Source of the DNA: an uncultured Bacteroidia bacterium
Lineage (GTDB): Bacteria; Bacteroidota; Bacteroidia; Bacteroidales; Prolixibacteraceae
Assembly: GCA_903927965.1 (NCBI GenBank)
Contig: CAIYPA010000348.1
Coordinates: 1-64,000 of the forward strand
DNA: 64,000 nucleotides
Direction of reading: 5' to 3'
The notes beneath the pieces are model-generated. The model made no database searches. It saw nothing but the letters and a program-made list of their open reading frames with translations, and was not told where the DNA came from. Numbering within the stretch: position 1 is the first letter of the stretch; each line of letters starts with the position of its first letter. A program made the position numbers and the translations under genes. This document shows positions 2,719 to 12,696 of the stretch, piece by piece.

Positions 2719-2726
2719 TTATAAGC

Positions 2727-5700
2727 CTATTTTGTGGTTCCACTTTCTTTTCTAGTTAATAGCCCCGTCAGATTAGTAATTAGAACTGTTCCTCCCCCCA
2801 GTACAATGAAGAGCTTATTCAAATTATCCAGTATCGATCTGTTTGCTATAAAAAGGAAAGACAACAATCCTACCATAAAAAGCACCAGAAAAAGCTTGTA
2901 TCCTTGCCAGCTAGCACCTGTATCTCCAAGCTTCGCTTTAATCCGCAACTTTTCTTCAGGCGTAAACTTTAACAAAATATACTTCCTGAAGCTTTCATTC
3001 ATAAAACGGATACTGCAACCTTTTACAACAAACAATCCTCTATTTATCAGCATGTTGACGACTCCTTTATTCTTTATATTAATGACCATGTCCTGGGCCA
3101 TATCACTCATTACAAAAAGCTCCATGGGCGTACACGAATCCAGAATACTTTCATAGTACAGGCTGCCCAACTCCAATATTTTCTGACTTATCCGGTTTTT
3201 AAGGATAGCATGTGAGAGTTCCTTTGAGACCAGATACTCATAGAATTCCACTATTTCCGCAGAAAACCTTAAGAGATAAGTACTTGAATTCAGCTCATTA
3301 CTGATAAAATCCGATATGTCTCCATTTTGATTTTTGATGAAATCAATGTCATTGTTTTTTCCCAAAGAAATGGGTTGATTTCTATTTTCAAGGTTAGAAC
3401 CATCATAATTTTGAGGAACAAAAAACACATTTACTTTTGAAAGGATGGTTTTAAACTGTATAAACACCTGTTCCCAAGTTACAGGAGTTGTATCTGACTT
3501 AATACTCGCATTTTCGCTACTATTCGTATTGGCCTTGCCTTCAAGATAATCAAGAATTTTATAAGGAGAGATAGTGCAGTATATAAGGATCTGCTCTTTA
3601 AATTGGATTTTATCACAAATTAGGTTCATTTGTAAAATCCAGTCAGATGAAAAATAATAATTTTCGGCAAAATTTTCAATTAGAATCAATTCCTTTTTAT
3701 CAAGCAAAGCATCCCTGTCACTTTTCATTTCCTGACCCACAACACCTATGATATGTGTTTCAAATTTTTGATCAAGCAGTTTTCTAATCAATCCGAACTT
3801 ATTTTCAAATGAGGAGCCAATGACCATAAGTGACTGTCCTGAATTGATCTGAGCACAAATCCTGTTCCCAAAATTACATTCAGTGTGCATTTCAAGAATT
3901 GAAATACCAAACATCCGCCTAATGCCGAATCGAACAAGAAGGTATATGCAATAAAAAACAACAAATAAAAGTAACATGAAAAGGAGGTCAAACATTTGAA
4001 ATAATGCCAATTGATTGATTTCCCTTTCAGAACCAAATGGATTGAAGATATGTGGCTGATGATAAATTGAATTTACCCTATATGTATTAATCATCTTTGA
4101 ATCTGTTAAAGAAGGTGATAAGTAATCAAAAACGATAGTATCATTTTTTGATTGCCAGACTTGATTTTTATTCCGAAAACTTTCTTCCTCCAGGTATTTG
4201 GTTTCGACTGAAATATCATCATACATCGGTCTGAAAAAGTCGACAATGCCCTCAAAGTCATTGTTAAAATTAACAGAATAATTTTCCGACAGGTTCAATT
4301 TGGAATCAACTTTTGGGATAATTTGTGGTCCAACAAAACTTTTGAAAGTTGTACCTGTGAATTGTGAATATATACCCAGTGCAACTCTTTCGTCATAAAT
4401 ACGGCTAACAGACGGATTAAGTTTGTGATTGTGCTCCATAAGTTTGTAATAATTCCGAAGTTGCAGGTTTCGTTTATCATATTGTCTTACCAATTCCAAT
4501 TGATCGTGTTTGATTCCCCTGATCAATTCATGGTTGATCGATGCCTCAAAAATCTTTACTGAAGGCACAACGCTGAAAGTAAAAATCAATCCCGACAAAT
4601 ACAAAAGATAAAAAGTGACAGTATATGGTTTGTAAATTAGGGTAAACCCTCTTTTAAGTATAAAAAAGCATATCATTGATAACGCAATAATGAAGCTTTC
4701 AAATATTAATAGTCTATTGAAATCCGTATGATCAACTATTCCCAATGAGCTAAAATTCAACCCAATAAGTAAAATTATATTAATTAAAGCAAAGAGATTG
4801 CGGCTTTGGGATTTTATGGAGAATCCGTTTATTGCATAAATTGAATAAGGGATAACGAATAAAGTCATAACAATTCCAAAGAGAAGAGGATTCATCATAT
4901 TGATTGGACTTACAACCATTAGATAGAATATGGCAATCAATAACAGCCAAATACTCAGCACTAAATATACCTTATTGTATTTTTCCCGAACATTAAAAAA
5001 CTCCAATACCTGGTTTTTCAATGTCGATTTCCGAAACAGCCGTTTACAAAAAATAAAAGTGAAAATCAAACCAATTAAGAAAGTAGTTAGTGACGTAGCA
5101 ACCAGGAGCGTACTTACAAGAGATTGTATTTGATAAGCATATTCCCTTTTCTTATCAAACATTGTCACAAGGTACAAGGGAATAGGAGAAAGGGGGACGA
5201 TGCGGATCCGGTATGGATCATCATAATAATTTACATCCAATGTCTTTACTGCATTTGAAAAAATAGCTGCCGAAATAGCTTTATCCTGATTGCATTCGCT
5301 GATTAGATTCTCCTGCATATTCCGTTGTTTGTCAGAATGAAACCACACTGTACCATTTTCATCAATAATACAAAATTTATAATCATGAGGTAATAGTGGT
5401 TCGATTATAGAATAAAACCTGCCGGTTATTGCGATGACAGTATTGTTCAGTTCAGACTTTTTAGACAAAGCAACTTTGCTAACCCCACTTGTCACAGATA
5501 CGATTGATTCCATCCTAAATCTGCGCTTTTCGTCTTTAGGAAGTTGCCAATCATCTGGTGTCTTAAAATAATCACGGTTTGCCAACTTTGAAGCTTTCTC
5601 CTTAACCGAAAATGGTGATAATATTCCAATCTGATACCCTGTTGAATCCAACCAGAATGAATAGTCAAAATAGGGGTAATAGGAGGGCTTATGTGGATTC

Positions 5701-6893
5701 GCCATTAAAATATCGGCGCTCGAAGGAATTGGGGCTCCAGATCTATAGGCTATTGAATCATAATAACATAGTTGATTATATACACTGTTTATCTCCGCAT
5801 TAAGCGAATTATTTATTTCATTTGACAAATCTTGCAATCTCGTTTCATTTTGCCGGTCATACCAAAAAGCATTTGACACAAATAGAATAAACCAAAAAGT
5901 AAATCCCGTAATCAAATATAGCGAAATCCCGAAATTGATCAAAGTACTGGAGGACAATTGCTCAGTTGGTGACATCACCTTAAGTTTAATAAACGGTAAT
6001 CCAAGGATGATCATGCCAAGGATCATCAACATTAAAATAACGATCCAGGGTGCCATAGCCCTTTTTGCTTGATTTATCTTTTCTTTCTCTACCAGGCCAC
6101 ATACATACCATGTTTTATTTTCAACTTGCACCTGGCATACAAACATCTTGTATTGGTTGCTGGAAATATTTATTTCATAAGAAGTAACACCATTGATTGA
6201 ACCGAGTCCCGCCTTTGATATTGTTGAAAGATTAATGATACCATTTAAGTTCTCATTTGTAATGGTGTTTTCGCTTCCTGTCGGCTGGCTTTTTTCAGAA
6301 TTAATAAATGTCAGGACCGGTTTTCCAGGAAGTGTTGTAAAGACGACATTATTATCGATAATAAGAATATACTGGCTGAAAATTTCACGTTGCACAAAAC
6401 CAGACATCAATGAGTTATATTGTGCTTTAAATTCGATAGCCATATTCTTCCCGGTATCGGCTTTATTTGCAATATTCAGATTAAAGGTTAAAAAATCTGG
6501 TTTAGCTTCGGATTTGACGTTATTAATTAAATCCGCCTTGTATATTTTCCCATTTGGTCTAATTTCGGATTTAACAAATTCAAGGTCAGTATTAAAATAG
6601 CTAAGGTCCTTTTTATCCTCCAGCATCTTACTAATATCTTCTATGGTTGAATTCTTCCGATTTTGGGACAAGTCCAAAAGATGCCTGACATATTCCTTTG
6701 AATTTGTCTCCATAGATTGAACTTTCAGATTTAAGTCTTTGCTCAATTGTTCAAGTATCCGGGATTTCGTTCGAATAATATGAGCTTCCTTGCTATTCGT
6801 ATATACCTCAATATAAATGTAATAACCGATCGCAAAAAGGAGCAGGGTGGCAAAAACTATAAACAAATTAAGGTTCAATTGTTTGCTCTTCAT
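2727..6893 (-). CDS. Large multi-pass membrane protein with Cache-like sensor and degenerate ATPase-like domain
   Basis: 1388 residues; I do not recognise a named family for the whole protein. Order seen: TM1 (about 8-30), an extracytoplasmic domain to about 280, two TM helices (about 281-345), a second extracytoplasmic region resembling a double Cache domain (ANRDYFK, SVTSGVSKVALSKKS, then FCIIDENGTVWFHSD), a block of about six TM helices, a third extracytoplasmic stretch, one more TM, then a cytoplasmic domain from about 1002 to 1325 and two C-terminal TM helices. The cytoplasmic part has a P-loop-like turn VIGSSFENKFG (about 1023-1033), a Walker-B-like strand ELILIEN (about 1068-1074) and a possible winged-helix region (about 1255-1310), recalling STAND ATPases. 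The Walker A Gly-Lys-Thr is not intact, so nucleotide hydrolysis is doubtful. Likely a sensor; the output is unknown. Confidence 0.75.
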   Translation of the reverse strand: MKSKQLNLNLFIVFATLLLFAIGYYIYIEVYTNSKEAHIIRTKSRILEQLSKDLNLKVQSMETNSKEYVRHLLDLSQNRKNSTIEDISKMLEDKKDLSYFNTDLEFVKSEIRPNGKIYKADLINNVKSEAKPDFLTFNLNIANKADTGKNMAIEFKAQYNSLMSGFVQREIFSQYILIIDNNVVFTTLPGKPVLTFINSEKSQPTGSENTITNENLNGIINLSTISKAGLGSINGVTSYEINISSNQYKMFVCQVQVENKTWYVCGLVEKEKINQAKRAMAPWIVILMLMILGMIILGLPFIKLKVMSPTEQLSSSTLINFGISLYLITGFTFWFILFVSNAFWYDRQNETRLQDLSNEINNSLNAEINSVYNQLCYYDSIAYRSGAPIPSSADILMANPHKPSYYPYFDYSFWLDSTGYQIGILSPFSVKEKASKLANRDYFKTPDDWQLPKDEKRRFRMESIVSVTSGVSKVALSKKSELNNTVIAITGRFYSIIEPLLPHDYKFCIIDENGTVWFHSDKQRNMQENLISECNQDKAISAAIFSNAVKTLDVNYYDDPYRIRIVPLSPIPLYLVTMFDKKREYAYQIQSLVSTLLVATSLTTFLIGLIFTFIFCKRLFRKSTLKNQVLEFFNVREKYNKVYLVLSIWLLLIAIFYLMVVSPINMMNPLLFGIVMTLFVIPYSIYAINGFSIKSQSRNLFALINIILLIGLNFSSLGIVDHTDFNRLLIFESFIIALSMICFFILKRGFTLIYKPYTVTFYLLYLSGLIFTFSVVPSVKIFEASINHELIRGIKHDQLELVRQYDKRNLQLRNYYKLMEHNHKLNPSVSRIYDERVALGIYSQFTGTTFKSFVGPQIIPKVDSKLNLSENYSVNFNNDFEGIVDFFRPMYDDISVETKYLEEESFRNKNQVWQSKNDTIVFDYLSPSLTDSKMINTYRVNSIYHQPHIFNPFGSEREINQLALFQMFDLLFMLLLFVVFYCIYLLVRFGIRRMFGISILEMHTECNFGNRICAQINSGQSLMVIGSSFENKFGLIRKLLDQKFETHIIGVVGQEMKSDRDALLDKKELILIENFAENYYFSSDWILQMNLICDKIQFKEQILIYCTISPYKILDYLEGKANTNSSENASIKSDTTPVTWEQVFIQFKTILSKVNVFFVPQNYDGSNLENRNQPISLGKNNDIDFIKNQNGDISDFISNELNSSTYLLRFSAEIVEFYEYLVSKELSHAILKNRISQKILELGSLYYESILDSCTPMELFVMSDMAQDMVINIKNKGVVNMLINRGLFVVKGCSIRFMNESFRKYILLKFTPEEKLRIKAKLGDTGASWQGYKLFLVLFMVGLLSFLFIANRSILDNLNKLFIVLGGGTVLITNLTGLLTRKESGTTK

Positions 6894-7093
6894 ATTATGA
6901 GGTATTAGAATACTTTTAAACTTTCATTATTGAACAAAGGAAAATACTGCATAAAGAATCCAATCGATATTATGCTTAATTTCAAGCAAATATAACGATT
7001 TTCGTAAATTCCCAAGTATCCGGGAAAAATCATTCGTGAAATGATTCAAAAAAGATATTTTTAGCAAAAATAATTAAATCAAATTTTGCATTT

Positions 7094-9016
7094 ATGAAAA
7101 GAATTTTGACAGTAAGCCTATTCATCTTTTTTGCAGTCTCTGTTTCAGCGCAAAAAGAGAGGAAAGATATTGGAGATCAATACAAATGGGACTTAACCCA
7201 CTTATTTTTAAATGACAAATCCTGGGAGGAAGCTAAAAATAAAGTAGTAGCTGAAATGCCCGGAATTGATAAGTTCAAGGGCAAACTTACCAAGTCCTCA
7301 GCCGATCTTCTTGCCTGCCTTGAGTTTTCAACCAAACTGGATAAAGAGGCTTCCCTGCTATTTATTTATGCGAGCTTGAATAGCGACCAGGATACCCGTG
7401 ACATGAAATACATGGCGATGCAACAAAGCCTTCAACAAATTTTCACGGCTTATGCGACAAAAACTGCATTCATTGAACCTGAACTTTTATCAGTTGATTG
7501 GAAAACAATTGAAACTTTTATTAAAGCTGAAAAAGGTCTCAAAGTTTATGAAAAGGATTTGTATGATTTGTTTAAAAAGAAAGAACATACTTTATCAGAA
7601 CCAGAGGAGCGGATCATTGCCAGGTCATCAATGATTTCGGGTGTGGCGAATACCATTTATGGAACGTTTAAAGATGCTGAGATGCCTTCTCCTGAGATTA
7701 CCCTAAGCAATGGAGAAAAAATAAAATTAACAATATCTGCCTTTAATAAGTTAAGGACTTCCCCTGTCAGGGCAGATCGCCAAATCGCATTTGAAGCTTA
7801 TTGCAACAATTTCAATAATTTCAAAGCAACCTATGGGCAAATGCTATATGGAAATGTCAAGGAGCATATCTTTAGGGCACAAACCCGTAAATACAGCTCT
7901 GCGATTGAAGCTTCCTTATCACCGAAGGACATACCTGTAGCTGTATATCAAAGCCTGATTGACAATGTCAATAAAAACCTCCCCTCCTTTCATCGTTACC
8001 TCAATATCAAGAAAAGAATGTTGGGAGTAGACACATTAAAATACCTTGATTTGTACACATCGGTTGTAAAAGATGTCGATTTAAAATACAATTACGAAGA
8101 GGCAGGCAAAATTATTTTGGAAGCTCTTGCCCCCCTCGGCTCTGATTATACAAAAACGATAAAGAAAGCAATTGAAGAACGGTGGATAGATGTTTTCCCA
8201 GCCCAGGGTAAACGTTCGGGAGCGTACTCAAATGGAGGAGCTTTTGATATTCATCCATATATTCTTTTGAATTTCAATGAGTCCTATTCAGATGTAAGCA
8301 CATTGGCCCATGAATTGGGACACACCATGCAAAGTTATTTGTCCAATAAGAATCAACCCTATCCAAAAGCCCAATACACTACTTTTGTTGCTGAAGTTGC
8401 TTCGACATTTAACGAGGTTTTATTGTTCAATTATATGATCAAGAATGTCAAAAATGAAGACGTAAAACTCTCATTGTTAATGAATTGGCTGGATGGTTTT
8501 AAAGGGACCCTATTCCGTCAGACTCAGTTCGCCGAGTTTGAGAAAAAAATCCACGAGGAGGTAGAAAATGGGAAACCGCTCACTGGAGACCATCTTTCGG
8601 AACTTTATAAGGATATCCTTATAAAATATTACGGTCACGATCAAAACGTTTGTTATATTGATGATTACCTCAAAATCGAATGGGCTACTATTCCCCATTT
8701 CTATATGAATTATTATGTATATCAGTATAGTACGTCGTTTACTGCTTCAATTTCCCTTGCAGAAAGAGTACTGAACAAGGAACCGGGGGCACTTGATAAG
8801 TATATTAAATTCCTCTCCTCCGGTGGATCCGAATACCCCATCGAACTTCTTAAAAGTGCCGGTGTCGATATGACCACATCATCGCCCTTTGAGAAAACGA
8901 TGCAGGCAATGAATAAGGTAATGGATGAAATTGAAACAATATTGAATAAGAGCGATAAGGAAAAAAGAAATAAAGAAATGAAAAGAGCGGTTACCAAAGA
9001 AAACCGCTCTTTTTAA
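7094..9016 (+). CDS. pepF: Secreted oligoendopeptidase F (peptidase family M3)
   Basis: Zinc metallopeptidase cleaving short peptides. The zinc motif HELGH is at residues 406-410, with Glu434 in VAEVAS as the probable third ligand. The N-terminus (MKRILTVSLFIFFAVSVSAQ) is a clear signal peptide, so unlike cytoplasmic PepF this copy is probably periplasmic. Full length at 640 residues. The last dozen codons are encoded inside a transcription terminator hairpin, giving a basic tail (MKRAVTKENRSF) that is probably outside the folded domain. Convergent with ychF. Confidence 0.9.
   Translation: MKRILTVSLFIFFAVSVSAQKERKDIGDQYKWDLTHLFLNDKSWEEAKNKVVAEMPGIDKFKGKLTKSSADLLACLEFSTKLDKEASLLFIYASLNSDQDTRDMKYMAMQQSLQQIFTAYATKTAFIEPELLSVDWKTIETFIKAEKGLKVYEKDLYDLFKKKEHTLSEPEERIIARSSMISGVANTIYGTFKDAEMPSPEITLSNGEKIKLTISAFNKLRTSPVRADRQIAFEAYCNNFNNFKATYGQMLYGNVKEHIFRAQTRKYSSAIEASLSPKDIPVAVYQSLIDNVNKNLPSFHRYLNIKKRMLGVDTLKYLDLYTSVVKDVDLKYNYEEAGKIILEALAPLGSDYTKTIKKAIEERWIDVFPAQGKRSGAYSNGGAFDIHPYILLNFNESYSDVSTLAHELGHTMQSYLSNKNQPYPKAQYTTFVAEVASTFNEVLLFNYMIKNVKNEDVKLSLLMNWLDGFKGTLFRQTQFAEFEKKIHEEVENGKPLTGDHLSELYKDILIKYYGHDQNVCYIDDYLKIEWATIPHFYMNYYVYQYSTSFTASISLAERVLNKEPGALDKYIKFLSSGGSEYPIELLKSAGVDMTTSSPFEKTMQAMNKVMDEIETILNKSDKEKRNKEMKRAVTKENRSF
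8981..9015. terminator. Bidirectional terminator overlapping the pepF stop codon
   Basis: AAAAGAGCGGTT (8981-8992) pairs with AACCGCTCTTTT (9002-9013) around a 9-nt loop. There is a T-run in both directions, so it can end both pepF and the convergent ychF transcript. The left arm and loop lie in pepF coding sequence. Confidence 0.75.
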
Positions 9017-11094: not shown

Positions 11095-11170
11095 AATTTA
11101 TTGGATATTTAAACTATTTTTTGATTATCACGTCTGAAATGCAAAATATCTTTAATTGCTTGTCACATTA

Positions 11171-11725
11171 ATGGATTTAAACGAAAAGGAGCTAATTGCC
11201 AATCTAAAATCTTCTGGGAAAAAAGAGGGTGCATTTCAGGTTCTGGTAAAGACTTATCAGGAACGATTGTATTGGCATATCCGAAAAATCGTTATGAACC
11301 ATGATGATACCGATGATATATTACAGAACGTTTATATTAAGGTGTGGAAAAATGTTGAGGGATTCAGGGAGGATTCCACCCTTTTTACATGGCTTTTCAG
11401 GATTGCGACAAATGAGTCGTTAAGTTTTTTACAAAAGCAGAGGAGGCATTCTGTTTTTTCGATGAACGAGATAAGCGAATACCTTGCAGATTCACTGGAG
11501 TCGGATGTCTATTTTGATGGAGATGAAATACAAAAGAAACTTCAGTTGGCGATTACAAAACTACCTGAAAAACAAAGAATTGTGTTTAATATGAAATATT
11601 TTGATGAAATGAAATATGAACAAATGTCGCAAATACTACAAACATCTGTAGGGGCCTTAAAAGCTTCCTTTCACTTTGCGGTAAAGAAAATAGAGGAATT
11701 TCTTGAGGAAGATCATAAAAAGTGA
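11171..11725 (+). CDS. ECF-type RNA polymerase sigma factor
   Basis: 184-residue sigma-70 family factor with only regions 2 and 4. Region 2 includes the DDILQNVYIKVWKNV and FTWLFRIATNES signatures; region 4 has LPEKQRIVFNMKYFDEMKYEQMS followed by a helix-turn-helix. The ATG at 11171 is preferred over a TTG 15 nt upstream. It is followed closely by a single-TM protein that could be its anti-sigma factor and a Spy-like periplasmic protein, so the three genes look like an envelope-stress module. The target regulon is unknown. Confidence 0.9.
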   Translation: MDLNEKELIANLKSSGKKEGAFQVLVKTYQERLYWHIRKIVMNHDDTDDILQNVYIKVWKNVEGFREDSTLFTWLFRIATNESLSFLQKQRRHSVFSMNEISEYLADSLESDVYFDGDEIQKKLQLAITKLPEKQRIVFNMKYFDEMKYEQMSQILQTSVGALKASFHFAVKKIEEFLEEDHKK

Positions 11726-11753
11726 TTAAACTATTTTCAATCATGAATGTCAA

Positions 11754-12224
11754 ATGAAAGCGATGAAAGAACAAGACGAAAATATAGAAAATCCGTTGGG
11801 AAAACTTAATAAGGAACATCCATTTTACGTTCCTGAAAATTACTTTGAAACTTTTGCTGACCGGCTAAAGTCCAGAATAGAGGATGAAGAAAAGTCGGGT
11901 AGAAAAAAAACATTGTACTTTTACTTGAAACCAGCATTGTCAATAGCAGCGAGTATCGCTCTTATTGTGCTTTTGATAAATGTTCCACTCACGAAATTTC
12001 CCCCTTCAAATCAAGGTTATCTTTCTCAAAACCAGCCAAGTAAAGATTCAGTAGATTCTGATGGGGTCATTCCGGTAGAATTGATCACATATTTTACAGA
12101 AGGACAATTCCTTTCTGCAGTTTCCGAAATGAACGAACTTGATAAACGGAAATTGTCACCTGATTCCCTCGGTGATTATATTGCGGCTAATTACAATGAT
12201 TATGAGATAATTGCAAATAATTAA
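11754..12224 (+). CDS. Single-TM protein, putative anti-sigma factor
   Basis: 156 residues: a charged cytoplasmic N-terminus (about 1-60), one TM helix (about 62-83, KPALSIAASIALIVLLINV), then a short acidic extracytoplasmic part. No named domain is recognised. Position directly after an ECF sigma gene and single-pass topology suggest it holds the sigma factor at the membrane; this is inference. A second in-frame ATG at 11763 is an alternative start. The next gene begins 7 nt after its stop. Confidence 0.7.
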   Translation: MKAMKEQDENIENPLGKLNKEHPFYVPENYFETFADRLKSRIEDEEKSGRKKTLYFYLKPALSIAASIALIVLLINVPLTKFPPSNQGYLSQNQPSKDSVDSDGVIPVELITYFTEGQFLSAVSEMNELDKRKLSPDSLGDYIAANYNDYEIIANN

Positions 12225-12231
12225 TTTAGAT

Positions 12232-12696
12232 ATGAAAACCCTATTAATTTTAATCGTTTTGAGCCTCGTTTCAATTACGGGTATAGCTCAACGACAATTC
12301 GACCCTCAAACGATCGAGTTGATAAAGACTAAAAAGATTGCTTTTTTGACGGAAGCCATCGGGTTGAGTTCACAAGAAGCCCAGAAATTCTGGCCAGTTT
12401 ACAATGAACTCGAAAAAGAACGTTTCGCGATTATTGACAAGAAAAGGGAGCTTGAAGAGAAAAGTGCGACACCAAAACCAGGAATGACAGAGGCTGACTA
12501 CAGGAAATTGGCCAATGAGATTGCTGCAACCCATGCTAAGGAAGGTCACCTGATCGAGGATTACAATTTGAAATTTTTAAATATCCTTCCTGCTGAAAAG
12601 GTTGTAAAATTGTATGTGGCAGAAGGAAAATTCAGGGGATATTTAATGCACGAATATCGGAAAGAACAAGAAAATAAAGAAAAAGACAAAAAATAG
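12232..12696 (+). CDS. Spy/CpxP-like periplasmic protein
   Basis: 154 residues with a signal peptide (MKTLLILIVLSLVSITGIAQ) and an almost entirely helical, highly charged mature part. The stretch IAFLTEAIGLSSQEAQKFWPVYNELEKERF resembles the LTxxQ-type helices of Spy/CpxP chaperone-like proteins and of Bacteroidota sensors next to ECF sigma genes. The ATG at 12232 is chosen because the longer TTG frame would overlap the upstream gene. Last gene of the sigma operon, followed by a terminator. Role as chaperone or stress sensor is inferred. Confidence 0.65.
   Translation: MKTLLILIVLSLVSITGIAQRQFDPQTIELIKTKKIAFLTEAIGLSSQEAQKFWPVYNELEKERFAIIDKKRELEEKSATPKPGMTEADYRKLANEIAATHAKEGHLIEDYNLKFLNILPAEKVVKLYVAEGKFRGYLMHEYRKEQENKEKDKK

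Follow-up and report, generated by a model that had tools for sequence, protein, structure and literature searches.

Cache sensor domains signal to methyl-accepting chemotaxis proteins (MCP), kinases, cyclases/GGDEF domains, phosphatases, Ser/Thr kinases, transcription factors and ion channels, and the catalogue of these outputs by Upadhyay et al. (PMC4822843) lists no ATPase output. In Avs4, Avs5 and other STAND NTPases, ATPase switches known from bacterial immunity, helical and winged-helix-like parts come after a P-loop core, and Avs5 requires its Walker A motif (PMC12931631). Here we describe a gene for a 1388-residue membrane protein that combines a Cache sensor with a core probably derived from STAND NTPases. 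It lies in a 64,000-nucleotide stretch from an uncultured bacterium of the Prolixibacteraceae (contig CAIYPA010000348.1, positions 1 to 64,000), referred to as the window. Its architecture, its Cache fold, the P-loop ancestry of its cytoplasmic core and the loss of the Walker motifs in its clade could be established computationally with high confidence. We consider it rather probable that the protein is a transmembrane (TM) sensor that relays a Cache signal through its winged-helix/two-TM end, without nucleoside triphosphate (NTP) hydrolysis in the window clade. No description of Cache and STAND in one molecule was found in the papers searched, and this absence is no proof of novelty.

The preliminary description of this gene, made from the sequence, had proposed an open reading frame (ORF) of 1388 residues at 2727-6893, which is confirmed on the minus strand (6893→2727). 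On its own, the window protein has no significant match in Pfam, PADLOC, NCBIfam, PHROGs or PDB sequences, and the PDB sequence searches returned nothing relevant. As a single query, it matches only its own genus and nothing in the collection of genome contigs. Because single-sequence queries stayed within the genus, profile searches were needed. Four of 18 genomes of the genus carry the gene, with about 51% identity. A profile of these sequences retrieved full-length relatives from further families of the order. Extended with these, it found relatives in 14 genomes of a class-level sample of 395, and a profile scan of the named genome collection yielded 77 loci. Bacteroidota provide the bulk of the family (Mucilaginibacter, Pedobacter, Ferruginibacter, Dyadobacter, Zobellia and many metagenome-assembled genomes, MAGs), and further members were found in Brocadia and a second planctomycete, Calditrichia, KSB1, Ignavibacteria, Verrucomicrobia, a MAG labelled Deltaproteobacteria and Solibacter (Acidobacteria). 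Given full-length relatives in the genus and in dozens of other genomes, the ORF is no chance frame. The receptor family is widespread and without description in any library searched (Pfam, PADLOC, NCBIfam, PHROGs); no characterised family in these libraries includes it, and neither they nor the papers found describe a system with this domain order, as the preliminary description had stated. We aligned 80 full-length members, the relatives spanning ~1110–1580 residues. In a FastTree tree, the window protein groups with L126, L092, L131 and L089 at a local support of 100%, and these sequences are the window clade. A C-terminal profile was run against 396 genomes of the phylum in search of other architectures, and all strong matches were long ORFs of family-like length.

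About twelve TM helices had been suggested, and twelve are found. The hydropathy peaks coincide with long helices of both AlphaFold models, at residues 8-32, 280-303, 315-340, 592-616, 637-660 and 667-688 (TM1-TM6) and 696-719, 722-748, 755-780, 964-989, 1328-1349 and 1358-1381 (TM7-TM12). The AlphaFold2 models were built from the window sequence and family rows, restricted to window rows and loci from the related-loci search, and cover residues 1-664 (pLDDT 81.6, pTM 0.77) and 590-1388 (pLDDT 78.3, pTM 0.76). The layout is compatible with a topology in which both termini are cytoplasmic (N-in, C-in), with three extracytoplasmic parts (ectodomains 1 to 3 in Table 1) and a single large cytoplasmic part, residues 990-1327. 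Six of the twelve helices are contiguous (TM4-TM9), Cache domains are also part of the alpha-2-delta subunits of calcium channels (PMC4822843), and the window model has weak fold matches to these subunits. A Cache-gated channel or transporter with a merely regulatory cytoplasmic part could be read from these features. We regard such a function as quite improbable, as TM4-TM9 belongs to the less conserved segments (49.9% identity in the window clade, 20.6% family-wide) and no transporter family in Pfam matched the window protein.

The double-Cache-like region that had been noticed in the sequence is supported by both homology and fold. Pfam dCache_1 matches the N-terminal half in 43 of 70 relatives (best 9.5e-15); the window dCache itself stays under the Pfam threshold and aligns with the relatives that match. 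Structure prediction returned a Cache fold, and the solved structures that best match the window model in a Foldseek search are HK1S-Z16 (E 3e-7) and PctA (9koo, TMt up to 0.73). With its double PAS-like Cache fold placed extracytoplasmically between TM helices, ectodomain 2 corresponds to a dCache_1 receptor. The C-terminal part of ectodomain 1 is homologous to the membrane-proximal dCache half (hhalign, prob 84, E 7e-6), a Cache-like nature that the preliminary description had overlooked. Ectodomain 3 shows no homology to Cache in the profile-profile comparison.

The family shares with PctA-type chemoreceptors and HK1S-Z sensors the extracytoplasmic double Cache, a nearly invariant RxYF and, in the dCache pocket region, a conserved Ser. 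In the RDYF motif, R440 is found in 79 of 80 members, Y442 in 77 and F at the last position in 66; as judged from the alignment, near-invariant Arg440 and Tyr442 would be as expected for a dCache pocket. The dCache_1AA motif consists of an aromatic/Arg start, Arg-x-aromatic-aromatic and a final pocket Asp (PMC10104139). The position aligned with the pocket Asp of amino-acid/amine sensors, by sequence alignment only, is mostly Ser, Thr or Ala in this family, and an amino-acid/amine ligand class is therefore not predicted. The difference from dCache_1 receptors lies in the output, since the window protein contains none of the catalogued modules (MCP, histidine kinase, GGDEF/EAL/HD, cyclase, phosphatase, kinase, transcription factor, channel). 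In agreement with the preliminary description, no histidine kinase, MCP, GGDEF or cyclase output appears in its Pfam scan, and no Pfam output domain is present in it or among the families listed for relatives.

The family alignment bears out the P-loop and Walker-B remnants recognised earlier. In the columns of the window's GSSFENK, relatives read GLPGSGKS (L048), GPPGSGKT (L053), PNSGKS (L074), PPVSGKS (L076 and L078), PNAGKS (L087) and PRTGKT (L123). A canonical GK[S/T] is thus present in 7 of 80 members, six of which also have the Walker-B Asp. Most members from Sphingobacteriaceae and Chitinophagaceae carry GSGKL with Asn (27 of the 31 in the 'GKx' class have Asn); in these sister groups, GSGKL and N-H-F-E-Y are strongly conserved and the Mg-binding Ser/Thr and the Asp are absent. 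The window clade has neither canonical Walker motif. L049, L056, L057 and L058 contain 40-95 residues in place of the window's 176-residue core and retain the other parts. The tree shows at least six changes of the canonical P-loop state. Regaining a complete P-loop several times would be implausible, and we therefore infer repeated loss, a family-wide trend that the preliminary description had missed.

Structure prediction of the cytoplasmic part leads to P-loop NTPase folds. The best PDB fold match is the STAND protein Avs4 (E 1.1e-3, superposition poor), followed by AAA+ ATPases. Hidden Markov model (HMM) matches occur in single relatives for nSTAND1 (0.0021), nSTAND3 (0.00027) and NB-ARC (0.002), the scored ones below the curated cut-off. 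AAA HMM matches are likewise weak, the family profile finds only weak NSF/HslU matches among PDB sequences, and the window protein has no significant match to any STAND HMM. Because the Avs4 superposition is poor and the HMM matches are weak, we describe the core as P-loop/AAA+-like and probably STAND-derived. The degenerate STAND-like domain of the preliminary description therefore stands as a degenerate P-loop, and its specific STAND membership is likely, short of proof. P-loop NTPase ancestry is supported by the motif being intact in seven relatives, and with a Walker A that reads GSSFENKF, the window protein would not be an active STAND member. It differs from STAND NTPases in being membrane-embedded on both sides with an outside-facing sensor, and no repeat sensor domain or nuclease is seen. 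It also lacks the Walker A that Avs5 needs (PMC12931631).

The model predicts helices and a beta hairpin at the position expected for a post-core winged helix, followed by TM11 and TM12, so that the proposed order of a winged-helix-like region and two C-terminal helices holds in the prediction. The winged-helix-like region has the family signature E..F.LxDxA.D..xN...(MN)xSFR and is strongly conserved in every clade. Mean pairwise identity in the window clade is lowest in the P-loop core (38.7%) and reaches 60.2% in the helical/winged-helix region, 65.5% in the dCache and 82.2% in the terminal two-TM region, the highest of all segments. In the GSGKL clades the core, at 57-65%, is not the weak point. 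The window clade has relaxed constraint on the core specifically and has kept both ends. Because the core lost constraint while both ends stayed conserved, output via the winged-helix/two-TM end is proposed.

The same conserved winged-helix-like segment, with its predicted beta hairpin between membrane helices, might instead bind DNA, and the protein would then be a membrane-tethered one-component transcription regulator following ToxR/CadC-like logic. STAND proteins regularly contain winged helices that do not bind DNA. Together with the location of the region between two membrane anchors, and with a list of 25 Pfam families for 76 members that includes no helix-turn-helix family, this makes DNA binding improbable.

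In the transmembrane relay that we favour, three extracytoplasmic parts, of which ectodomain 1 is single-Cache-like, ectodomain 2 a double Cache and ectodomain 3 unassigned, would be connected through ten membrane helices to the P-loop/AAA+-like core, the winged-helix-like region and the two-helix hairpin. A putative small ligand would bind the dCache, the ligand-induced change may pass through the membrane, and the winged-helix/two-TM end would alter its shape or assembly, regulating a partner. Since the switch is a pseudo-NTPase, the window clade presumably works without NTP hydrolysis. The four relatives that keep Cache, winged helix and two TM helices with almost no core support this relay. 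Several points weigh against it. No ligand is known for the family, and the winged helix is visible in the model and by position only. STAND membership depends on weak HMM scores and one borderline fold match. Joint loss of Walker A and Walker B, when tested on the tree, goes in the expected direction, but the test has too few independent pairs and is underpowered (median p 0.25). Most members, the window included, are without a visible effector, because 57 of 87 loci have no operon partner, i.e. no co-directional neighbour within 120 bp. Finally, a Lys is retained at the Walker-A position of the window P-loop, so nucleotide binding is possible.

This Lys, together with Gly1026 (GSSFENK), could indicate that the core still binds nucleotide without hydrolysis and serves as a non-catalytic, ligand-gated switch in the window clade too. 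The strong conservation of GSGKL, N-H-F-E-Y and the surrounding core in the sister groups would fit such a switch, and the Walker B of Avs5 has been argued to serve mainly binding (PMC12931631). However, the Lys is lost in the window's sisters (GSPFVNLS, GSPFLDHS, GSPSVSPV), and no segment changes faster than the core in the clade. We therefore hold such a switch there to be unlikely, though the least unlikely of the alternatives to the relay.

In the window the receptor gene is solitary, without an operon partner alongside. A divergent M3-family oligopeptidase gene (7094-9016) lies on its 5' side, and a convergent aldo/keto reductase gene (1885-2718) followed by a globin gene on its 3' side. 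As the gene stands alone, any partner of the window receptor must act in trans. The survey of homologues and their neighbours shows an undescribed family with patatin and peptidase neighbours in other lineages. All eight patatins among the 961 ORFs of the 87 loci directly adjoin the receptor gene on the same strand (seven upstream, one downstream), and they fall in three separate tree groups, one of which has a distinct patatin subfamily. The linkage of patatin and receptor gene is non-random. Caspase domains are found near L053 and L085, papain near L053, L056, L094 and L117, subtilase near L056, L085 and L115, trypsin near L057, and Tle1-like phospholipase or peptidoglycan-hydrolase domains near other members. 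Patatin phospholipases and caspase, papain or subtilase peptidases encoded next door are thus the likely candidate partners in these lineages.

As in CBASS-type patatin effectors, the patatin beside the Pedobacter Leaf194 member matches the PADLOC phospholipase effectors (E 1e-24); the one upstream patatin tested with PADLOC, that of L097, is typed as a phospholipase effector. In contrast to CBASS, the neighbour is a receptor, and the scans of the neighbours revealed no cyclic-nucleotide synthase. By analogy, the neighbour sets resemble NTPase-centred conflict systems (PMC7159879). The iSTAND ternary systems share a catalytically inactive STAND core and peptidase-rich contexts, but they are defined by a MoxR-vWA pair (Kaur et al. 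2020, PMC7159879), which was not seen in the family list of 37 operonic neighbours or beside the window gene, and Cache is not mentioned in that paper. More tentatively, the family might be an outside-in counterpart of bacterial NLRs, in which an extracellular Cache signal would drive a membrane-anchored STAND-like switch controlling death-type effectors (patatin, caspase); several lineages including the window's would have independently dropped the NTPase and would signal via the winged-helix/two-TM end alone.

The interval between the aldo/keto reductase and M3 peptidase genes (window 2719-7093) is a variable slot in the genus. It measures 60-69 bp only in G004, G007, G013 and G016, contains other genes (one CFA-synthase-like) in G005, G006, G010, G011 and G014, and holds the receptor gene in the four carriers, in G009 together with a CFA-synthase-like gene. 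No receptor pseudogene remnants were detected at empty or otherwise filled slots in the genus. L131 and L089, equally close in sequence, have the receptor gene at another location. The gene is accessory, which would suit a role in sensing or conflict and proves neither. The lost NTPase motifs, the presence in just 4 of 18 genomes and a site that is empty or filled with other genes in most other genus members could also be expected of a decaying, functionless gene. This is very unlikely, as intact frames of ~1390 residues persist in three genus genomes and in L089 and L131 despite ~50% divergence, with 65-82% identity in the dCache and the terminal helices.

Further observations concern individual loci. 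An upstream patatin-like phospholipase overlaps or abuts the receptor start in L072, L097, L100, L102 and L107, and the distinct subfamily is found in L101/L105. Directly downstream of the Dyadobacter receptor, L085:11559-17312 (+) encodes a 1917-residue protein with subtilase and caspase matches. A recurrent membrane protein (VxxSLVFIYLLYSLLAT...; ~340-410 residues where measured) is encoded in eight loci (L097, L102, L108, L057, L053, L072, L100, L107). It always lies 2-4 kb upstream on the strand of the receptor gene, and the copies tested match nothing in Pfam. Window positions 11156-12696 encode a sigma-70 (ECF-like) factor, then a probable anti-sigma-like membrane protein and a small secreted protein; the same sigma factor gene is also close to the receptor gene in other genus members. 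In L124:7356-11693 (= L051), one in-frame TAA splits the receptor gene into two successive ORFs of 729 and 714 residues. The receptor genes of L113 (Rhodocytophaga aerolata) and L114 (Mucilaginibacter flavidus) are fragmented into several ORFs and may be pseudogenes or sequencing errors. At the contig end of L016/L098, the receptor 3' end appears as an inverted duplicate at the G017:C200 edge, probably because of misassembly, and its sequence also terminates G017:C259. Two alignment rows match CarboxypepD_reg-like domains (best 7.9e-12) inside the stretch taken as cytoplasmic.

Table 1. Features of the receptor gene and its product in the window.
Feature	Residues	Window position	Strand	Basis
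Whole gene: 12-TM Cache/pseudo-P-loop/winged-helix-like/2-TM receptor, 1388 aa		2727..6893	minus	
Ectodomain 1: long helix and PAS/Cache-like sheet	33-279	6057..6797	minus	AlphaFold model, hhalign
Ectodomain 2: double Cache (dCache_1)	341-591	5121..5873	minus	Pfam in relatives, fold match
RDYF motif in dCache	440-443	5565..5576	minus	family alignment
Six-helix membrane block TM4-TM9	592-780	4554..5120	minus	hydropathy and models
Ectodomain 3, poorly conserved across family	781-963	4005..4553	minus	AlphaFold model, identity, profile comparison
Degenerate P-loop core	1015-1190	3324..3851	minus	alignment, fold, identity
Walker A remnant GSSFENKF (relatives: GSPGSGKL or GPPGSGKT)		3795..3818	minus	alignment
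Walker B remnant LILIENFA, Glu1073 (Asp in canonical relatives, Asn in GSGKL group)		3666..3689	minus	alignment
Helical/winged-helix-like region	1191-1325	2919..3323	minus	model, alignment
Terminal region with two-TM hairpin	1326-1388	2730..2918	minus	identity

Among the sensors that bacteria direct outwards, Cache domains are the most common, and STAND proteins are widespread as alarm switches inside the cell; this family joins a Cache sensor to a probably STAND-derived core. The natural series from an intact P-loop over GSGKL with Asn and no motif to a core that is nearly gone lends itself to asking what a STAND-like core does without ATP use. The family would be a new route for an outside chemical to arm phospholipases or caspase-like peptidases.

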